This document shows, piece by piece, positions 1 to 23,044 of a DNA stretch of 64,000 nucleotides (its first letter is position 1; each line of letters opens with the position of its first letter). The notes below the pieces were generated by a model. It did no database searches and was not told the origin of the DNA. It saw only the letters and a list, made by a program, of their open reading frames with translations. Origin of the DNA: Modestobacter roseus (GTDB taxonomy: Bacteria > Actinomycetota > Actinomycetes > Mycobacteriales > Geodermatophilaceae); contig NZ_VLKF01000001.1 in assembly GCF_007994135.1 (NCBI RefSeq), positions 1,116,001 through 1,180,000 on the forward strand. The letters are read 5' to 3'. Made by a program: the position numbers and the translations under genes.

Positions 1-1
1 C

Positions 2-1552
2 GACGGGGGCGCCCTGGTCTCGCTGCTCGAACCCCAGCCGGGCACGCCGGACGCCGACCGGCTGCGCGCCGAGCTCATCGAGGCGGTGATCGCCGAGAGC
101 GAGGACGAGACGCTGATGGAGCGCTACCTCGACGGCGCCCCGATCGGCCTGCCCGAGCTGGTCGCCGACCTCGAGACCGCGGTCACCCGGGGGGCCTTCC
201 ACCCGGTGCTGTGCGTCTCCCCGCTCACCGGGCTCGGCGTGGACGCACTGCTGGACCTGCTGGTCACCGGCTTCCCGTCGCCGCTGGAGCGGCCCTGCCC
301 GCCGGTGCTGCGCCCCGACGGCAGCCCCGCCGGCCGGGTCTCCTGCGACCCCGACGGCCCGCTGGTGGCCGAGGTGGTCAAGACCACCACCGACCCCTAC
401 CTGGGCCGGATCAGCCTGGTGCGGGTCTTCTCCGGGCGGCTCCGGCCGGACATGCCGGTGCACGTCTCCGGGCACGGGCAGGGGCACGGGTGGGGCGACC
501 GGCACCCCGACCACGACGCCGACGAGCGGGTGGGCGCGATCTCCGGCGCGCTCGGCAGCGTGCTGCGCCCGGTGGCCGAGTGCCTGGCCGGTGACGTGTG
601 CGCGGTCGCCCGGCTGGCGACGGCGGAGACCGGGGACACCCTGTCCGACCCCGAGCGACCGCTGGTGGTCCAGCCGTGGGACCTGCCCGTGCCACAGCTG
701 CCGGTCGCGGTGGCGGCGGCCTCCCGCACCGACGAGGACCGGCTGGCCGCGGCGCTCGCCCGGCTCACCCTGGAGGACCCCATCGTGCGGGTCGAGCGGC
801 GCACCGACACCGGGCAGCTGCTGCTGTGGTGCACGGGCGACGCGCACGCGGAGGTGCTGCTGGAGCACCTGCGCACCCGCTACCAGGTCACCGTCGCCAC
901 CCCACCGGTGCGGGTGGCGCTGGTGGAGACGCTCGCCGGGCCGGCGACGGTCACCGCCCGGCACGTGAAGCAGTCCGGCGGGCACGGCCAGTACGCCGTT
1001 GTCGTGGTGGAGGGCCGGCCCGGGCCGCCCGGGTCGGGGATCACCTTCGACCAGCGGGTGGTCGGCGGCGCGGTGCCCGGGCAGTTCCACGGCAGCGTGG
1101 AGAAGGGCATCCGCACGCAGGCCGCCCGCGGGGTGAGCCCGGACCGGCCGCTGGTCGACGTCGCCGTCACCCTGGTCGACGGCAAGGCGCACTCGGTCGA
1201 CTCCTCCGACGCGGCCTTCGCCGCCGCCGGTGCGCTGGCGCTTCGCGAGCTCGCCGCGACCGCCGGCACCCGCGTGCTGGAGCCGTGGTGCCGGATCGAG
1301 GCGGTCGTGCCGGTCGACGCGGTGGGCCCGGTGCTCGGCGACCTCGCCGGCCGGCGGGCCCGGGTGACCGGCAGCGACGTCGGCCCCGGCCGCGAGGAGA
1401 CGACGGTGCGCGCCGAGGTGCCCGAGCGGGAACTGCTCGACTACGCCCGCGCGCTCCGCTCGCTCTCCCACGGCACCGGCCGGTTCCGCCGGGAACCGCT
1501 GGGTCATGAGCCGGCGCCGGCCGCGGTCGCCGCCGAGCTGCAGCCCGCGTGA
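2..1552 (+). CDS. elongation factor G-like GTPase (EF-G2 type), 3' part
   Basis: The reading frame is open from base 2, so the gene starts left of the window; about 516 residues of a roughly 700-residue protein remain. What is present is the end of the G domain, a domain II barrel (around KTTTDPYLGRISLVRVFSG), a domain III-like segment with GDAHAEVLLEHL, a domain IV with SGGHGQYAVVVV and GAVPGQFHGSVEKGI, and a domain V starting near PWCRIEAVVPV. This is the translocase/ribosome-binding half of the EF-G family. The divergence from housekeeping EF-G (HGQYAV rather than the usual RGQYG) and the lack of neighbouring rpsL, rpsG or tuf genes point to the second, EF-G-like paralogue common in actinobacteria. 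Its role there is not settled. The stop overlaps the next start by 4 bases (GTGA). Confidence 0.88.
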   Translation, partial: DGGALVSLLEPQPGTPDADRLRAELIEAVIAESEDETLMERYLDGAPIGLPELVADLETAVTRGAFHPVLCVSPLTGLGVDALLDLLVTGFPSPLERPCPPVLRPDGSPAGRVSCDPDGPLVAEVVKTTTDPYLGRISLVRVFSGRLRPDMPVHVSGHGQGHGWGDRHPDHDADERVGAISGALGSVLRPVAECLAGDVCAVARLATAETGDTLSDPERPLVVQPWDLPVPQLPVAVAAASRTDEDRLAAALARLTLEDPIVRVERRTDTGQLLLWCTGDAHAEVLLEHLRTRYQVTVATPPVRVALVETLAGPATVTARHVKQSGGHGQYAVVVVEGRPGPPGSGITFDQRVVGGAVPGQFHGSVEKGIRTQAARGVSPDRPLVDVAVTLVDGKAHSVDSSDAAFAAAGALALRELAATAGTRVLEPWCRIEAVVPVDAVGPVLGDLAGRRARVTGSDVGPGREETTVRAEVPERELLDYARALRSLSHGTGRFRREPLGHEPAPAAVAAELQPA

Positions 1553-3192
1553 GCGCCGAGAGCGGCACCCGCCCCGAGCGGACCGGCTCCTCGGCGTCAC
1601 GGGCCGGGGAGCCGGTCGACCAGGACCAGCCCGACGTCACCGACACCGCCGTCCCGCCGCGGCGGCAGTGGGCCGGCCGCATCGGCGGCCCGGTCGCCGC
1701 GCTCGTCGTCTACTTCCTGCTCCGCCAGAGCGACGACCTGAGCACCGCCGGGCGCACCACCGCGGCGATCGGGGTGCTGCTCGCGGTCTGGTGGATGACG
1801 GAGGCCCTGCCGTTGCCGGCGACGGCGCTGGTGCCGATCGTGGCGTTCCCGCTGCTCGGGGTGCTCCCGGTCGGCGAGGCCACCGCGCCCTACGCCGACC
1901 CGAACATCTTCCTGTTCATGGGCGGCTTCATGATCGCGCTGGCGATGCAGAAGTGGGAGCTGCACCGGCGCATCGCACTGCTCACCGTGCGGGCGGTCGG
2001 CACGGAGCCGAACCGGCTGATCGGCGGCTTCATGGTCGCCACCGCGTTCCTCAGCATGTGGGTGAGCAACACCGCCACCACCGTGCTGATGCTGCCCATC
2101 GGGCTCAGCGTGCTGCTGCTGGTGCTGGACCGGGTGGGCGCCGGGGACGAGGACGCCGCCGCCGCTGACCAGGCCCGAGGAGGGACGACGGCGGTCACCG
2201 AGGCCATCAAGGACAAGGACACCCGCAATTTCGCCGTCGCGCTGATGCTGGGCATCGCCTACGCCGCCAGCATCGGCTCGCTCGCCACGCTCATCGGCAC
2301 CCCGCCCAACCTGATCCTGGCGGCCTTCGTCCGGCAGAACTACGACATCGTCCTGGGGTTCGGGGAGTGGATGCTGCTCGGCCTGCCGCTGGCGGTGGTC
2401 TTCCTCGGGCTCGCCTGGCTGGTGCTCACCAAGGTGGCCTTCCGGTCCGGTCTGCGGGAGATCCCCGGGGGTCGGCAGGTCATCCAGTCCGAGCTGGACC
2501 AGCTCGGGAAGATGTCCCGCGGCGAGTGGACCGTGCTCGCGGTGTTCGTCGTCACGGCCCTGCTGTGGGTGTTCCGGCAGCCGCTGACCGGGTGGGAGGC
2601 GCTCACCGACGTGCTGCCGTTCGTCGCCGAGCTCAGCGACCCGGCCATCGCGATCGCGGCCGCGATCGCCCTGTTCCTCATCCCGGTGAAGGCGCGGGAG
2701 GGCGTCTCGGTGCTGGACTGGCACACCGCCCAGCAGCTGCCCTGGGGGGTGCTGCTGCTCTTCGGCGGCGGGCTGAGCCTGGCCGCCGCGGTCCAGGAGA
2801 GCGGGCTGGACGAGTACATCGGCGGCCAGGTGGGCGCGGTCGGGGCGCTGCCGGCCATCGTGCTGGTGTCCATCACCGCCGGCGTGGTGCTGCTGCTCAC
2901 CGAGGTCACCAGCAACACCGCCACCGCCGCCGCCTTCCTGCCGGTCCTCGGCGGGGTCGCGCTCGGGCTGGACCTGCTGCCGCTGGTGCTGCTGGTGCCC
3001 GCGGCCCTGGCGGCCACCTGCGCGTTCATGCTCCCGGTGGCCACCCCGCCCAACGCCATCGTGTTCGGCTCGGGCTACGTCACGATCGGGCAGATGCTGC
3101 GGGCCGGTGTCGTCCTCAACGTGATCGGCATCGTGCTGATCACCGCCGCGGTCTACCTGCTCGGCGGGGTCGCGCTCGGCATCACGTTCTGA
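1549..3192 (+). CDS. SLC13/DASS-family sodium:anion (dicarboxylate-type) permease
   Basis: This 547-residue polytopic membrane protein has about a dozen hydrophobic segments and a soluble N-terminal tail of about 40 residues. It carries the two SNT signature motifs of the DASS fold, VSNTATTVLMLPI in the first half and TSNTATAAAFLPV in the second, each followed by an ATPPN/GTPPN-type turn (IGTPPNLI, VATPPNAI). In characterised members these form the substrate and sodium sites for di- or tricarboxylates or sulfate. The substrate cannot be read from sequence. The GTG start overlaps the upstream stop by 4 bases, so translation is probably coupled to the EF-G-like gene, though a functional link is not obvious. 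Confidence 0.9.
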   Translation: MSAESGTRPERTGSSASRAGEPVDQDQPDVTDTAVPPRRQWAGRIGGPVAALVVYFLLRQSDDLSTAGRTTAAIGVLLAVWWMTEALPLPATALVPIVAFPLLGVLPVGEATAPYADPNIFLFMGGFMIALAMQKWELHRRIALLTVRAVGTEPNRLIGGFMVATAFLSMWVSNTATTVLMLPIGLSVLLLVLDRVGAGDEDAAAADQARGGTTAVTEAIKDKDTRNFAVALMLGIAYAASIGSLATLIGTPPNLILAAFVRQNYDIVLGFGEWMLLGLPLAVVFLGLAWLVLTKVAFRSGLREIPGGRQVIQSELDQLGKMSRGEWTVLAVFVVTALLWVFRQPLTGWEALTDVLPFVAELSDPAIAIAAAIALFLIPVKAREGVSVLDWHTAQQLPWGVLLLFGGGLSLAAAVQESGLDEYIGGQVGAVGALPAIVLVSITAGVVLLLTEVTSNTATAAAFLPVLGGVALGLDLLPLVLLVPAALAATCAFMLPVATPPNAIVFGSGYVTIGQMLRAGVVLNVIGIVLITAAVYLLGGVALGITF

Positions 3193-20183: not shown

Positions 20184-20342
20184 CTAGCGACGGCGGGCCA
20201 CGCGGGTGCCGACCAGCACGCCCATCAGCGACCAGAAGGCACCCACCCCGACCCCGGCCAGCACCACCCAGAACGGCACCCGCATCTCGTCGGTCGCCGT
20301 CGCCACCAGCCGCTCCTGCACGCTCGGTTCCATGAAGGGCAT
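20184..20342 (-). CDS. small hypothetical membrane protein
   Basis: A 52-residue protein begins MPFMEPSVQERLVA, has one transmembrane helix (VPFWVVLAGVGVGAFWSLMGVLV) and ends with a basic tail (TRVARRR), suggesting N-out/C-in topology. No clear Shine-Dalgarno is visible, and the frame continues upstream into the lower-GC insert, which is unlikely to be coding. This is the last host-like gene before the insert. Confidence 0.5.
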   Translation of the reverse strand: MPFMEPSVQERLVATATDEMRVPFWVVLAGVGVGAFWSLMGVLVGTRVARRR

Positions 20343-20411
20343 CTTGACGGACAGTGCGCCGCACGGGTTGACGCGCAGCGCTCTGGACTTCCTTGCAGGC
20401 TGTATGTGACA

Positions 20412-20439
20412 TGGCCACGTCGAGTGGCTTGCGTGGCCA
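20412..20439. promoter_or_regulatory. inverted repeat upstream of the two-gene cassette
   Basis: TGGCCACG and CGTGGCCA are perfect 8-bp arms separated by 12 bases, about 136 bases upstream of the ATPase ATG. It could be an operator or an end structure of the insert; nothing in the sequence decides between these. Confidence 0.4.
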
Positions 20440-20574
20440 ACATGGCCTGTCACGCCTCGTGTCTCGTGCGCACCATGTCCGGAGTTGTCTACTTCCTAGC
20501 CACCATGCGCCGCCTGCAGCACGACCGGTTCGCTGACCGTGTCGACTTCAGCTTCTTCCGCGCATGTGTTAGAC

Positions 20575-22020
20575 ATGCCCGTGCGCATTGAGCGGCTCTG
20601 GTTCGCGGGTATCAAGAGCTTCGACGCGACCCAAAGTCTCACTTTCCAAGGCTTGAACCTTATCTACGGACCGAACTCCTCAGGGAAAAGCAGCATATTT
20701 CAGGCCCTACTGTTATTGAAGCAGAGTGTTCAACGTGCCTACGCGGCCGAGCCAGGGGTGCTGGAGTTTCGTAGCGGGGTGGCGGACCTTGGGGGGTTTC
20801 GAACCTTCGTCCACGGTCATGATGTAAGCAAAGCGATTACGGTGGGCTTATCCCTAACACAGGTTAGAACGCCCGCTCCGCGATTCTTTGGTCATCGAGT
20901 TTCTGTGGAACTCAAATTCGGCATGCGATCCGCTGCCGATAGGGAGCCTAGCCTTCTGCAGATTACCGTCGGGGATGACACGGACATAAAGTTTGCGTTC
21001 GATAGGCAGTTCGGCGAGATGAGGTTGGCGGATGCTGCTAGCTCGGCAGCACTGATCAACAAATGGTCGTCCGTGTACGAGGATCAAGCGCGCCATCGAG
21101 GGCGAAACGAGCCCCTGCCCACGGATGCAGACAGGCGATGGCTGCGAGAGTGGGTTCGCAAGCATGGCTGTCAACTGGCTGGCTGGTTGCCATATTGGTC
21201 GCCAGCGGAGTATGGCCGCGGAAAGCCTGGTCGACCATTCGGTGGTAGCTTTGATGCACCGCGATACGACTACCTGCAGAGCCTTCTTTACTGGTGGCAG
21301 AGTTGGTCGAGTGGTTTCGCTTTCGAGCTCTATCAAATGCTAGAGGACCTGGTATACGTTGGTCCTCTACGCGAATTTCCTCGTCGTGTGGCTACCGAAG
21401 CCAGTGATGCAATCGGTGTTGGTGTGCGTGGCGAGCGCCTCGTGTTGCACTTGGCGCGCCATGGTGAGCTCGTCGATCAAGTCAATGACGCATTCAGGGA
21501 ACTGGAGATTCCGTACCGACTGAAGGTCGACCAGGTCCAGTCTGAGGCTGTGCAGGATGCGTTGGGGGACGTGGCTATCGCAATTCTAAGTGACGTACGC
21601 ACAGGGGTCGACGTTAGTCCGGCGGATGTTGGATTTGGACTGTCCCAAGTACTCCCGGTAATCGTCCAACTTCTCGGGAACACTAATAGCATTATCCTCG
21701 TCGAACAGCCGGAGATTCATCTACATCCAAAGGTCCAGTCCAGGCTAGCGGATGTACTCATCAAGTCCGCAGTCAGGGGCAAGAATCAGGTCGTCGTTGA
21801 GACTCACTCGGAACACATACTCCTACGTGCGCAGCGACGAATGCGTGAACGCCAGACTGCTGGGTTCCGGGCAGGTTCGTTGGGAGTTCAGTACGTGTCA
21901 TCGGTCGAAGGACGGGGTGTAGTGCAAAGCTTGCGCGTGGCCGCGGATGGTTCGCTTCTTGATCCCTGGCCGGACGGGTTCTTTGACGAGCGATTCGAAG
22001 ACCTATTCGCAACGATCTGA
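20575..22020 (+). CDS. AAA/ABC-type ATPase, OLD-like with C-terminal DUF3696
   Basis: The 481-residue ATPase starts MPVRIERLWFAGIKSF. Its Walker A is GPNSSGKSS (32-40), with a signature-like DVGFGLSQVLPVIVQLL segment, Walker B IILVEQPEIHLHP (373-385) and an H-loop-like ETHSEHILLR (409-418). The end (GSLLDPWPDGFFDERFEDLF) matches the DUF3696 tail of COG4938-type ATPases. No TOPRIM nuclease domain follows, unlike GajA/OLD nucleases, so it probably acts as a sensor/motor for the adjacent gene. The start could be GTG 20539; no clear Shine-Dalgarno is seen. Low GC and isolated context indicate transfer. Confidence 0.85.
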   Translation: MPVRIERLWFAGIKSFDATQSLTFQGLNLIYGPNSSGKSSIFQALLLLKQSVQRAYAAEPGVLEFRSGVADLGGFRTFVHGHDVSKAITVGLSLTQVRTPAPRFFGHRVSVELKFGMRSAADREPSLLQITVGDDTDIKFAFDRQFGEMRLADAASSAALINKWSSVYEDQARHRGRNEPLPTDADRRWLREWVRKHGCQLAGWLPYWSPAEYGRGKPGRPFGGSFDAPRYDYLQSLLYWWQSWSSGFAFELYQMLEDLVYVGPLREFPRRVATEASDAIGVGVRGERLVLHLARHGELVDQVNDAFRELEIPYRLKVDQVQSEAVQDALGDVAIAILSDVRTGVDVSPADVGFGLSQVLPVIVQLLGNTNSIILVEQPEIHLHPKVQSRLADVLIKSAVRGKNQVVVETHSEHILLRAQRRMRERQTAGFRAGSLGVQYVSSVEGRGVVQSLRVAADGSLLDPWPDGFFDERFEDLFATI

Positions 22021-22023
22021 CGA

Positions 22024-22938
22024 GTGTTTGAGGTGCTGACCGCCACGTCTTCGAGTCAAGGTGTCGCCGCGGTCGATAACGACGTAATGACTGCACTGGC
22101 GGAAAAGCTTGTCAACACTGCCGTTCTGACTCGCCCATCGGTGGAGTGGCAGGCAGCTCTGCGCCAGGTGCTTAAAGACGCACCTCTGGACACGCAACAA
22201 CGGTGGATCGAGTACGTGCGGGGTCGCCTCGTTTCGGACAGAAATCGGTGGTCGTGCGTTACGTGCCGACTTAACGCCCCGTTGGGGCTTATATTCGCGT
22301 CTGACGAGTCGGGAACCTGTCCCACGTGTTCGGGCGACAAAGAACTTCCAGTTGGCGTGCTAGGTAGCCCTCGCCTTGATCAGTGCAGAGCGGCCCAGGT
22401 TGCGCCACTTGAAAGGGGTGACGACTGTGCTGGTCGCCTCAACGCCGGGTTTGGCCCGATCCTCGATTTCTCCGACCAGGTGGACGTCGTCGACCCGTAC
22501 GCCGTTACTGATGCACTGCGTAACCCTGCGGCCTCTGGTCTCGCACGATTCGTGCAACGCGCCGCGGCTGGTGGGGTCACGCGGTTGTTCGTTCATACGG
22601 GCGTAGGGGGGTCGCACAACAAGAAGGTCTTGCCCGCAAGTGATCTGGCTTCAGAGCTGGGTCAACTCGCCTCGAACGTGCTGGACGGTCTTCCTATGGA
22701 AGTGCACATAAGTGTGCTGAATAGCCAAGAGCGCGCGAAGCACATGCATGACCGCTTCGTGGGAATGTCCTGGGGGTCACGCGGCAAACTCTCTTGGGCT
22801 CTTGGTAAGGGACTCGGTCAATTCAATGGATCGCGAGCAAGTCGTGCCTACGCGGTTGCGCGTCAGAGTGATGGCGCAGTGGCTCGAATAGTGACCGACT
22901 TGCGTGTCTTCTCCACGTTAGGAATGCGGGTCTATTAG
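22024..22938 (+). CDS. zinc-ribbon plus PLD-like (MIT_C-like) putative effector
   Basis: A 304-residue protein starts with GTG three bases after the ATPase stop, without its own Shine-Dalgarno, so it is probably translationally coupled. The N-terminal 70 residues are helical. A zinc ribbon follows (CVTC at 78-81, CPTC at 99-102). The C-terminal half reads VDVVDPYAVTDAL (153-165), LFVHTGVGG, and HMHDRFVGMSW...LGKGLGQFNG (240-269). The DPY plus HDR...GKGLGxF pattern resembles the phospholipase-D-like domain at the C-terminus of MIT proteins. Nuclease or other phosphodiesterase activity is my inference. The low GC matches the ATPase gene. Confidence 0.75.
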   Translation: MFEVLTATSSSQGVAAVDNDVMTALAEKLVNTAVLTRPSVEWQAALRQVLKDAPLDTQQRWIEYVRGRLVSDRNRWSCVTCRLNAPLGLIFASDESGTCPTCSGDKELPVGVLGSPRLDQCRAAQVAPLERGDDCAGRLNAGFGPILDFSDQVDVVDPYAVTDALRNPAASGLARFVQRAAAGGVTRLFVHTGVGGSHNKKVLPASDLASELGQLASNVLDGLPMEVHISVLNSQERAKHMHDRFVGMSWGSRGKLSWALGKGLGQFNGSRASRAYAVARQSDGAVARIVTDLRVFSTLGMRVY

Positions 22939-23044
22939 CCGCCTGCTGCTCTCACGGCCACACAGCGGGAGGTGTGAGGCGAACGGAACGCGACCTTGAC
23001 GTGAGCGCAGCCGCCGGGAAACGGCGTCCCCGGAACCTCTAGAT

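Follow-up and report, generated by a model that had tools for sequence, protein, structure and literature searches.

What is the small, low-GC cassette that stands in GC-rich DNA of Modestobacter roseus, and does it represent a phage-defence system of a known or of a new kind? The cassette was analyzed within a stretch of 64,000 nucleotides, hereafter the window, to whose positions all coordinates refer unless a locus is named. With moderate confidence, we read it as a mobile two-component anti-phage cassette, in which an OLD-type sensor ATPase licenses a PLD-fold effector that bears an HxR motif and most probably cleaves nucleic acid.

The GC content over both genes is 0.54-0.60, versus ∼0.74 around them in the window, and the drop in third codon positions is steeper still: GC3 is 0.59 and 0.62 in the ATPase and partner genes, whereas the nasC-like gene and nirB, which come next downstream, reach 0.97 and 0.98. 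The lower-GC insert named in the original prediction is thus borne out, and the extent first given for it (20390..22960) designates a real cassette, the limits of which were mended from flank homology in genus relatives to approximately 20318..22970 (an unstranded feature with approximate boundaries). All 21 genus relatives resume homology on the right at 22953-22984. Sequence beyond 20134, on the left side, is alignable in 11 of the 21, with alignments ending at 20269-20322 and, in eight of these relatives, precisely at 20317. The nasC-like gene is present in 22 of 23 genus genomes, the own genome included, and in the closest relative (L117, with a nasC-like protein 94% identical) ∼217 bp lie between the matching blocks instead of the insert. 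It follows from these flank matches that the pair was inserted in this lineage.

The longest word common to the insert edges is 9 nt, and scans for promoters and terminators returned no more than were obtained from shuffled sequence. The remaining frames of at least 80 residues all overlap the ATPase and partner genes, so that no space is left for a mobility gene, in agreement with the original prediction. The cassette is a foreign and probably mobile two-gene unit. A small reverse-strand gene (20184-20453) adjoins the insert, and its start region has no match to the start of the gene in the relatives; the insertion may have replaced its N-terminus.

The first gene (20575..22020, forward strand, with an ATG at 20575 and a stop ending at 22020) encodes an OLD/DUF3696-type ABC ATPase of 481 residues, the putative sensor. 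Its Walker A motif (GPNSSGKSS, 20668..20694, forward) has six residues that are invariant in seven of seven aligned ATPases. The Walker B motif (VEQPEIHLHP, 21700..21729, forward) was assigned from the sequence and the same alignment, and an H-loop-like ETHSEH (21799..21816, forward) has its first five residues, ETHSE, invariant in all seven. These motifs had been predicted; the alignment adds a putative ABC-signature-like GFGLSQ (21631..21648, forward), of which G, G and Q are invariant (7/7). Pfam assigns AAA_21 and AAA_15, with DUF3696 just below the threshold, and no TOPRIM domain was detected in the ATPase with Pfam at E values up to 1, again as foreseen. Among PADLOC families the top three matches were nearly tied, namely HEC-03B (4.6e-50), NsnB (6.4e-49) and PDC-M55A (1.9e-43), while AriA, GajA and PtuA matched more weakly. 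The best relative of the ATPase shares 72% identity with it along the whole protein, rising to 77% in the C-terminal 300 residues.

The second gene (22024..22938, forward strand, GTG start) begins three bases past the ATPase stop, exactly as originally placed, and encodes a PLD-like partner of 304 residues, the putative effector. It bears a zinc-ribbon-like element, C78xxC81 ... C99xxC102 (22255..22329, forward), which is predicted to bind metal. The two CxxC pairs are retained in all five members of the subfamily; among the other 34 partners only L038 has two CxxC, and the structure model is of low confidence in this stretch. Residues 123-304 (22390..22935, forward) constitute a PLD-fold, MIT_C-like domain, an assignment that began as a guess and now has the support of both profile and fold comparison.

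In an alignment of 38 partners (L019 and L041 are identical in sequence, so that one duplicate is counted), D157 of a DPY motif (22492..22500, forward) is present in all 38. H242 and R244 of an HDR motif (22747..22755, forward), a candidate catalytic or phosphate-binding pair, are each found in 37, both being absent from L037, and G263 is kept in 35. The catalytic motif of the PLD superfamily is HxK(x)4D. The window partner has HDR, with no Asp four residues on; its PLD motif is thus HxR and not HKD, and the substitution of Lys by Arg in 37 of the 38 partners, together with the missing Asp, counts against the preferred reading.

Profile databases assign the window partner to no family: no Pfam family scored above its cut-off, NCBIfam gave no match, and the Pfam, PADLOC and NCBIfam profiles revealed no HNH, TOPRIM or helicase domain in it, consistent with the original view that the effector is neither HNH nor helicase. 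A Pfam match to CapR was dropped (E 0.24). PADLOC-DB 2.0.0 contains no profile with a match to the window partner at E values of 1 or below, and an existing family comprising both genes was therefore not found there. In a PADLOC scan of eight relatives of the partner at E up to 5, six had no match whatsoever, and P0002 (3.4e-4) and P0004 (0.024) matched weakly to the C-terminus of ZorD only.

The fold assignment proceeds from a structure model built with 32 sequences, which superseded an earlier one built with four (mean pLDDT 56.7). All 10-residue blocks up to residue 120 have a pLDDT of 66 or less, and we therefore assign a fold to neither the N-terminal half nor the ribbon. The closest solved fold is MITD1, which is also the only PDB match obtained with the partner profile when E values of up to 10 were allowed (4.6e-6). 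The corresponding Pfam family, MIT_C (PF16565), matches seven of 32 family members (best E 1.9e-5) and not the window protein itself at E up to 1. Matches of the sequence to a dehydrogenase and to photosystem PsaC in the PDB (best E 0.092) were discarded as due to chance or cysteine spacing.

The likeness to MITD1 raises the question of the substrate, since the model is suggestive in two directions: folds resembling SauUSI and Zucchini suggest nucleic acid, and MITD1 suggests membranes. According to the title of a 2012 study by Hadders, MITD1 is reportedly a membrane binder, which counts against the preferred reading, and the PLD-fold domain might accordingly be a membrane-acting effector that, once released by the ATPase, binds or cleaves phospholipid and damages the membrane. 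We consider this unlikely. The PLD-fold nucleases SauUSI, Zucchini, NgoAVII and BfiI also score 7.8-10.2 against the partner fold, and the same type of domain terminates some BrxL proteins, where it is described as an HKD-type DNase with Lys changed to Arg (PMC12839542, in the passages drawn on here). A nucleic-acid substrate stays part of the preferred reading.

Close relatives of the partner are scarce. A query with the window protein against 5.8 billion proteins recovered three distant metagenome relatives (40-44% identical), and nothing in the collections of viruses, genomes or plasmids. Within the order, 298 genomes were searched and a convincing match was found in the own genome only; 15 others gave weak, partial matches (E up to 0.01) that were not taken as relatives, and many of the weak matches in the order fell in frames of ∼531 residues with the appearance of phosphoglycerate dehydrogenase, an enzyme to which the window protein also had a weak PDB match. 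One further genome of the class (of 394, beyond the own) encodes a pair of which the ATPase is 54% and the partner 32% identical to those of the window. This second partner keeps the four cysteines, DPY, MHDRF and LGKGLGQ-N-G, and the pair again stands by itself as an island of low GC (0.53-0.59, versus ∼0.73 around it) containing the two genes and one frame of 121 residues; as far as they are readable, the flanking frames are unlike those of the window.

Partners outside the subfamily are 10-20% identical to the window protein. Nevertheless, in a search of 2233 sequences, a profile of 34 partners, from which the subfamily was excluded, detected the window protein at 7.2e-16; shuffled copies, short partners and neighbour genes gave no match at E up to 10. 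Judged from these alignments, the long partners appear to be homologous despite fast sequence change.

The pairing itself is recurrent. A relative of the ATPase is encoded in at least 522 of 590 pattern stretches of the genome collection, and the best 80 of these, all from titled genome records, were retained. In 29 of the 80, a PLD-like partner of 291-366 residues directly follows the ATPase, with gaps of -40 to +7 in 28 cases and +89 in one. Another 48 carry a short partner of 128-183 residues at this position, and three have no ORF within reach, two of them at the end of the locus. All of the short partners except those of L045, L048 and L072 (45 of 48) match a profile seeded with three proteins called HEC-03A by PADLOC. 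In these HEC-03A-like proteins D6, N8, D112 and D133 are invariant and E52 nearly so, and from the spacing of the D/N/E/D residues they appear PIN-like; neither one member nor a 16-member profile gave a convincing PDB match.

In 10 of 80 viral-collection loci (kept from 118), the ATPase is followed by a frame that the partner profile matches at less than 1e-40. Among plasmids, 60 records contained an ATPase relative, and six were examined for the partner. In four (L024-L027), a gene of ∼300-340 residues overlaps or touches the ATPase stop and shares the D and H-x-R motifs with the window protein; its product is called a hypothetical protein in the three annotated records, the L025 record being without annotation. 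The other two (L028 and L029) have partners of other types. Adjacency of the two families, on which the original prediction depended, thus recurs in genomes, plasmids and viral contigs. A search of the class gave ATPase matches in 34 of 394 genomes, and 14 of 28 loci were parsed for the genes that follow it. Besides L158, PLD-like partners were recognized by appearance in L159 and L161-L163, short partners in L165-L167, and TOPRIM-like partners, by reading, in five others; L179 passes a loose motif filter only.

Several plasmid and genome loci show additional gene arrangements. A partner with a weakly DUF2325-like C-terminus follows a related ATPase in L022 (2226-3080) and L029 (4711-5577), and in L029 genes for HEPN and DUF262 proteins lie beyond it on the opposite strand. 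In L028 (3989-7953), reading of the translations indicates a Menshen-like trio of ATPase, TOPRIM-like and DUF262-like proteins. In L026 (7643-9977, a Deinococcus plasmid), the pair is followed on the other strand by genes for a DUF2357 protein and an AAA ATPase, possibly another defence pair.

The type of partner tracks the ATPase phylogeny. The tree was calculated without L066, L099, L040, L095 and L104, with L022 in its corrected frame, and with rows longer than 700 residues trimmed to the last 480. All 33 PLD-partnered rows, that of the window included, are gathered on the same side of one branch (support 97/86), such that partner type changes once on the tree, versus a mean of 26.4 changes upon shuffling. 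The window ATPase forms a long branch (2.15), the exact placement of which is unsure, and falls outside the group with short partners. PLD-partnered ATPases are distributed over at least nine phyla.

The genes surrounding the relatives bear on what the pair might do. When all 180 neighbour genes were considered, HsdM relatives were found in the fetched flanks of 7 of the 29 long-partner loci (among the best 80 ATPase loci), and HsdS at 6. For PADLOC, 105 of the 180 were used (the four nearest per locus, none above 1400 residues, one ATPase removed), of which up to 6 matched a family of type I methyltransferases, and no more than 5 a specificity family. In a control of 100 genes at 20 arbitrary places, nine PADLOC families and no type I restriction were detected (the families included BrxC, PglZ, BrxD, DrmD and QatD, matched once each, and mad2 and mad3, matched twice each); the control came from the phylum of the window only and the test loci from many phyla, so that the two are unmatched by taxon. 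Type I restriction genes also lie beside two of the four plasmid loci with a PLD partner, L024 and L027. The defence-gene neighbours anticipated for the pair were thus found in part: at 22 of the 29 loci no HsdM was found, the flanks being short at several, and this counts against the preferred reading. Of the 105 neighbour genes (loci L030-L103), 3 to 5 have matches to RtcR or sigma-54-activator families.

These restriction neighbours, together with the fold likeness to the ATP-dependent endonuclease SauUSI, could also indicate a restriction-like system, in which the pair would cut foreign DNA directly, without killing the host, and the ribbon or the varied N-terminal half would confer specificity. 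Such a system seems distinctly unlikely, however, since the window insert contains no methyltransferase gene, which leaves self-protection unexplained, and the island of the second genome is equally sparse.

The partner domain also occurs in a BREX protein. When 396 genomes of the phylum were searched with the partner-family profile, six matches were obtained: two full-length proteins, three BrxL C-termini and one fragment without a nearby ATPase motif. Both full-length, stand-alone matches follow the ATPase, contrary to what would be expected if the partner existed mostly without it. Three of the ten viral-collection contigs mentioned above also encode a BrxL that ends in the same type of domain. 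A terminal MIT_C-like HxR PLD domain was observed in BrxL proteins of L113 (1-1998) and L115 (1-1959), and likewise in those of L241, L242 and L248 (each 1-2007, minus strand); the scores of L241 and L242 are alike, and the two may be near-copies. According to passages of PMC12839542, 1030 of the 2913 type 1 BREX taxa that encode BrxL have the HRD-type domain at the C-terminus of this protein.

The cassette's own neighbours in the window are housekeeping genes, which counts against the preferred reading, and the window partner has few relatives. Both facts would suit a module outside defence, either one for DNA repair or stress, or merely a mobile, selfish pair of the toxin-antitoxin kind. This is very improbable in our view, given the foreign composition, the empty site in relatives, the patchy spread, the defence-linked ATPase family and the restriction or BREX genes beside some of the relatives.

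For the anti-phage reading, a hold-then-license account appears the most economical, by analogy with PARIS and the HEC-03 sister group; in PARIS, AriA activates AriB (PMC12839542, in part). The ATPase, which is an ABC protein of the OLD type and has no TOPRIM, would bind and restrain its partner and sense an infection cue, and an ATP-dependent rearrangement or release would then render the PLD-fold partner active. As each partner protein contributes a single HxR half-site, a dimer would be needed to build the active site. The activated partner might cleave phage DNA, or else cellular nucleic acid with abortive infection as the outcome, as in PARIS, and the ribbon could add contacts to nucleic acid or to the ATPase.

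A broader proposal, which we advance tentatively and would not yet rely upon, is that the HxR PLD-fold (MIT_C-like) domain constitutes a distinct, phylum-spanning class of OLD-ABC effectors, captured by BrxL in BREX and, among eukaryotes, by the ESCRT-III cofactor MITD1, the PLD domain of which would then derive from an antiviral effector of bacteria; fast sequence drift would explain why the class is unlisted. If the preferred reading is correct, it describes a two-gene ATPase-effector branch in at least nine phyla, the second component of which is not clearly detected by any profile in the PADLOC release applied. The OLD-ABC class would gain an effector fold beyond TOPRIM, HNH, restriction-endonuclease and PIN, together with a link to the HRD domain of BrxL, and a bacterial origin of the unusual PLD domain in MITD1 would become testable. 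Being so small, with neither mobility nor restriction genes beside its two genes, the cassette is also convenient for direct bench work.

How, then, does the pair compare with known systems? One of the closest is HEC-03, a PADLOC candidate system reportedly named once in a survey of rumen defence systems, in which HEC-03B, a homologue of the window ATPase, is likewise followed directly by a small effector gene. The HEC-03 effector, HEC-03A, is however a ∼160-residue protein that is PIN-like by its residues, whereas the window partner is predicted to have a PLD fold and lacks a HEC-03A match. Two HEC-03A-partnered ATPases score 8e-123 and 1e-150 with HEC-03B, as opposed to 2e-31 to 8e-52 for five PLD-partnered ones. 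Menshen (NsnABC) is related through NsnB, the near-tied second match of the window ATPase, yet it includes a DUF262 gene (NsnA) and a TOPRIM partner; the window pair has neither, and its insert encodes two non-overlapping genes only.

A 2025 paper by Li et al. on domain polymorphism in Menshen, reportedly cited for the HKD domain of BrxL, may overlap with the present observations in covering PLD partners of OLD-ABC ATPases. Literature searches on DUF3696 returned nothing related, and for MIT_C or MITD1 with phage terms, among the matches listed, only a cell-biology paper on MITD1 was relevant.

PARIS, Septu and Gabija share with the window pair the layout of an OLD/ABC ATPase and an effector. 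Their effectors are TOPRIM in PARIS, HNH in Septu, and TOPRIM with a helicase in Gabija (PMC10952713 and PMC12839542, in part); no TOPRIM family, as in PARIS, Gabija and OLD, was found in either window protein, and no HNH (PtuB) family in the partner. BrxL carries the same type of domain fused to an AAA+ BREX protein, unlike the window, where the domain is a stand-alone gene after an OLD ATPase. The C-terminal domain of MITD1 has the D-P-Y, HDR and GxGL motifs in common with the partner, although MITD1 is a eukaryotic ESCRT-III-binding protein and the partner is bacterial.

That OLD-ABC ATPases can pair with different nucleases (HNH, PD-(D/E)XK and PIN) is already described in the passages of PMC12839542 consulted, which do not name PLD partners. 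Because such pairing is established, the ATPase is related to HEC-03B and NsnB, and the Menshen paper may include PLD partners, the originally predicted status of an undescribed kind of system is not upheld. Instead, as the pairing recurs across many phyla, often beside antiviral genes, the cassette is probably an uncatalogued branch of a known phage-defence class.
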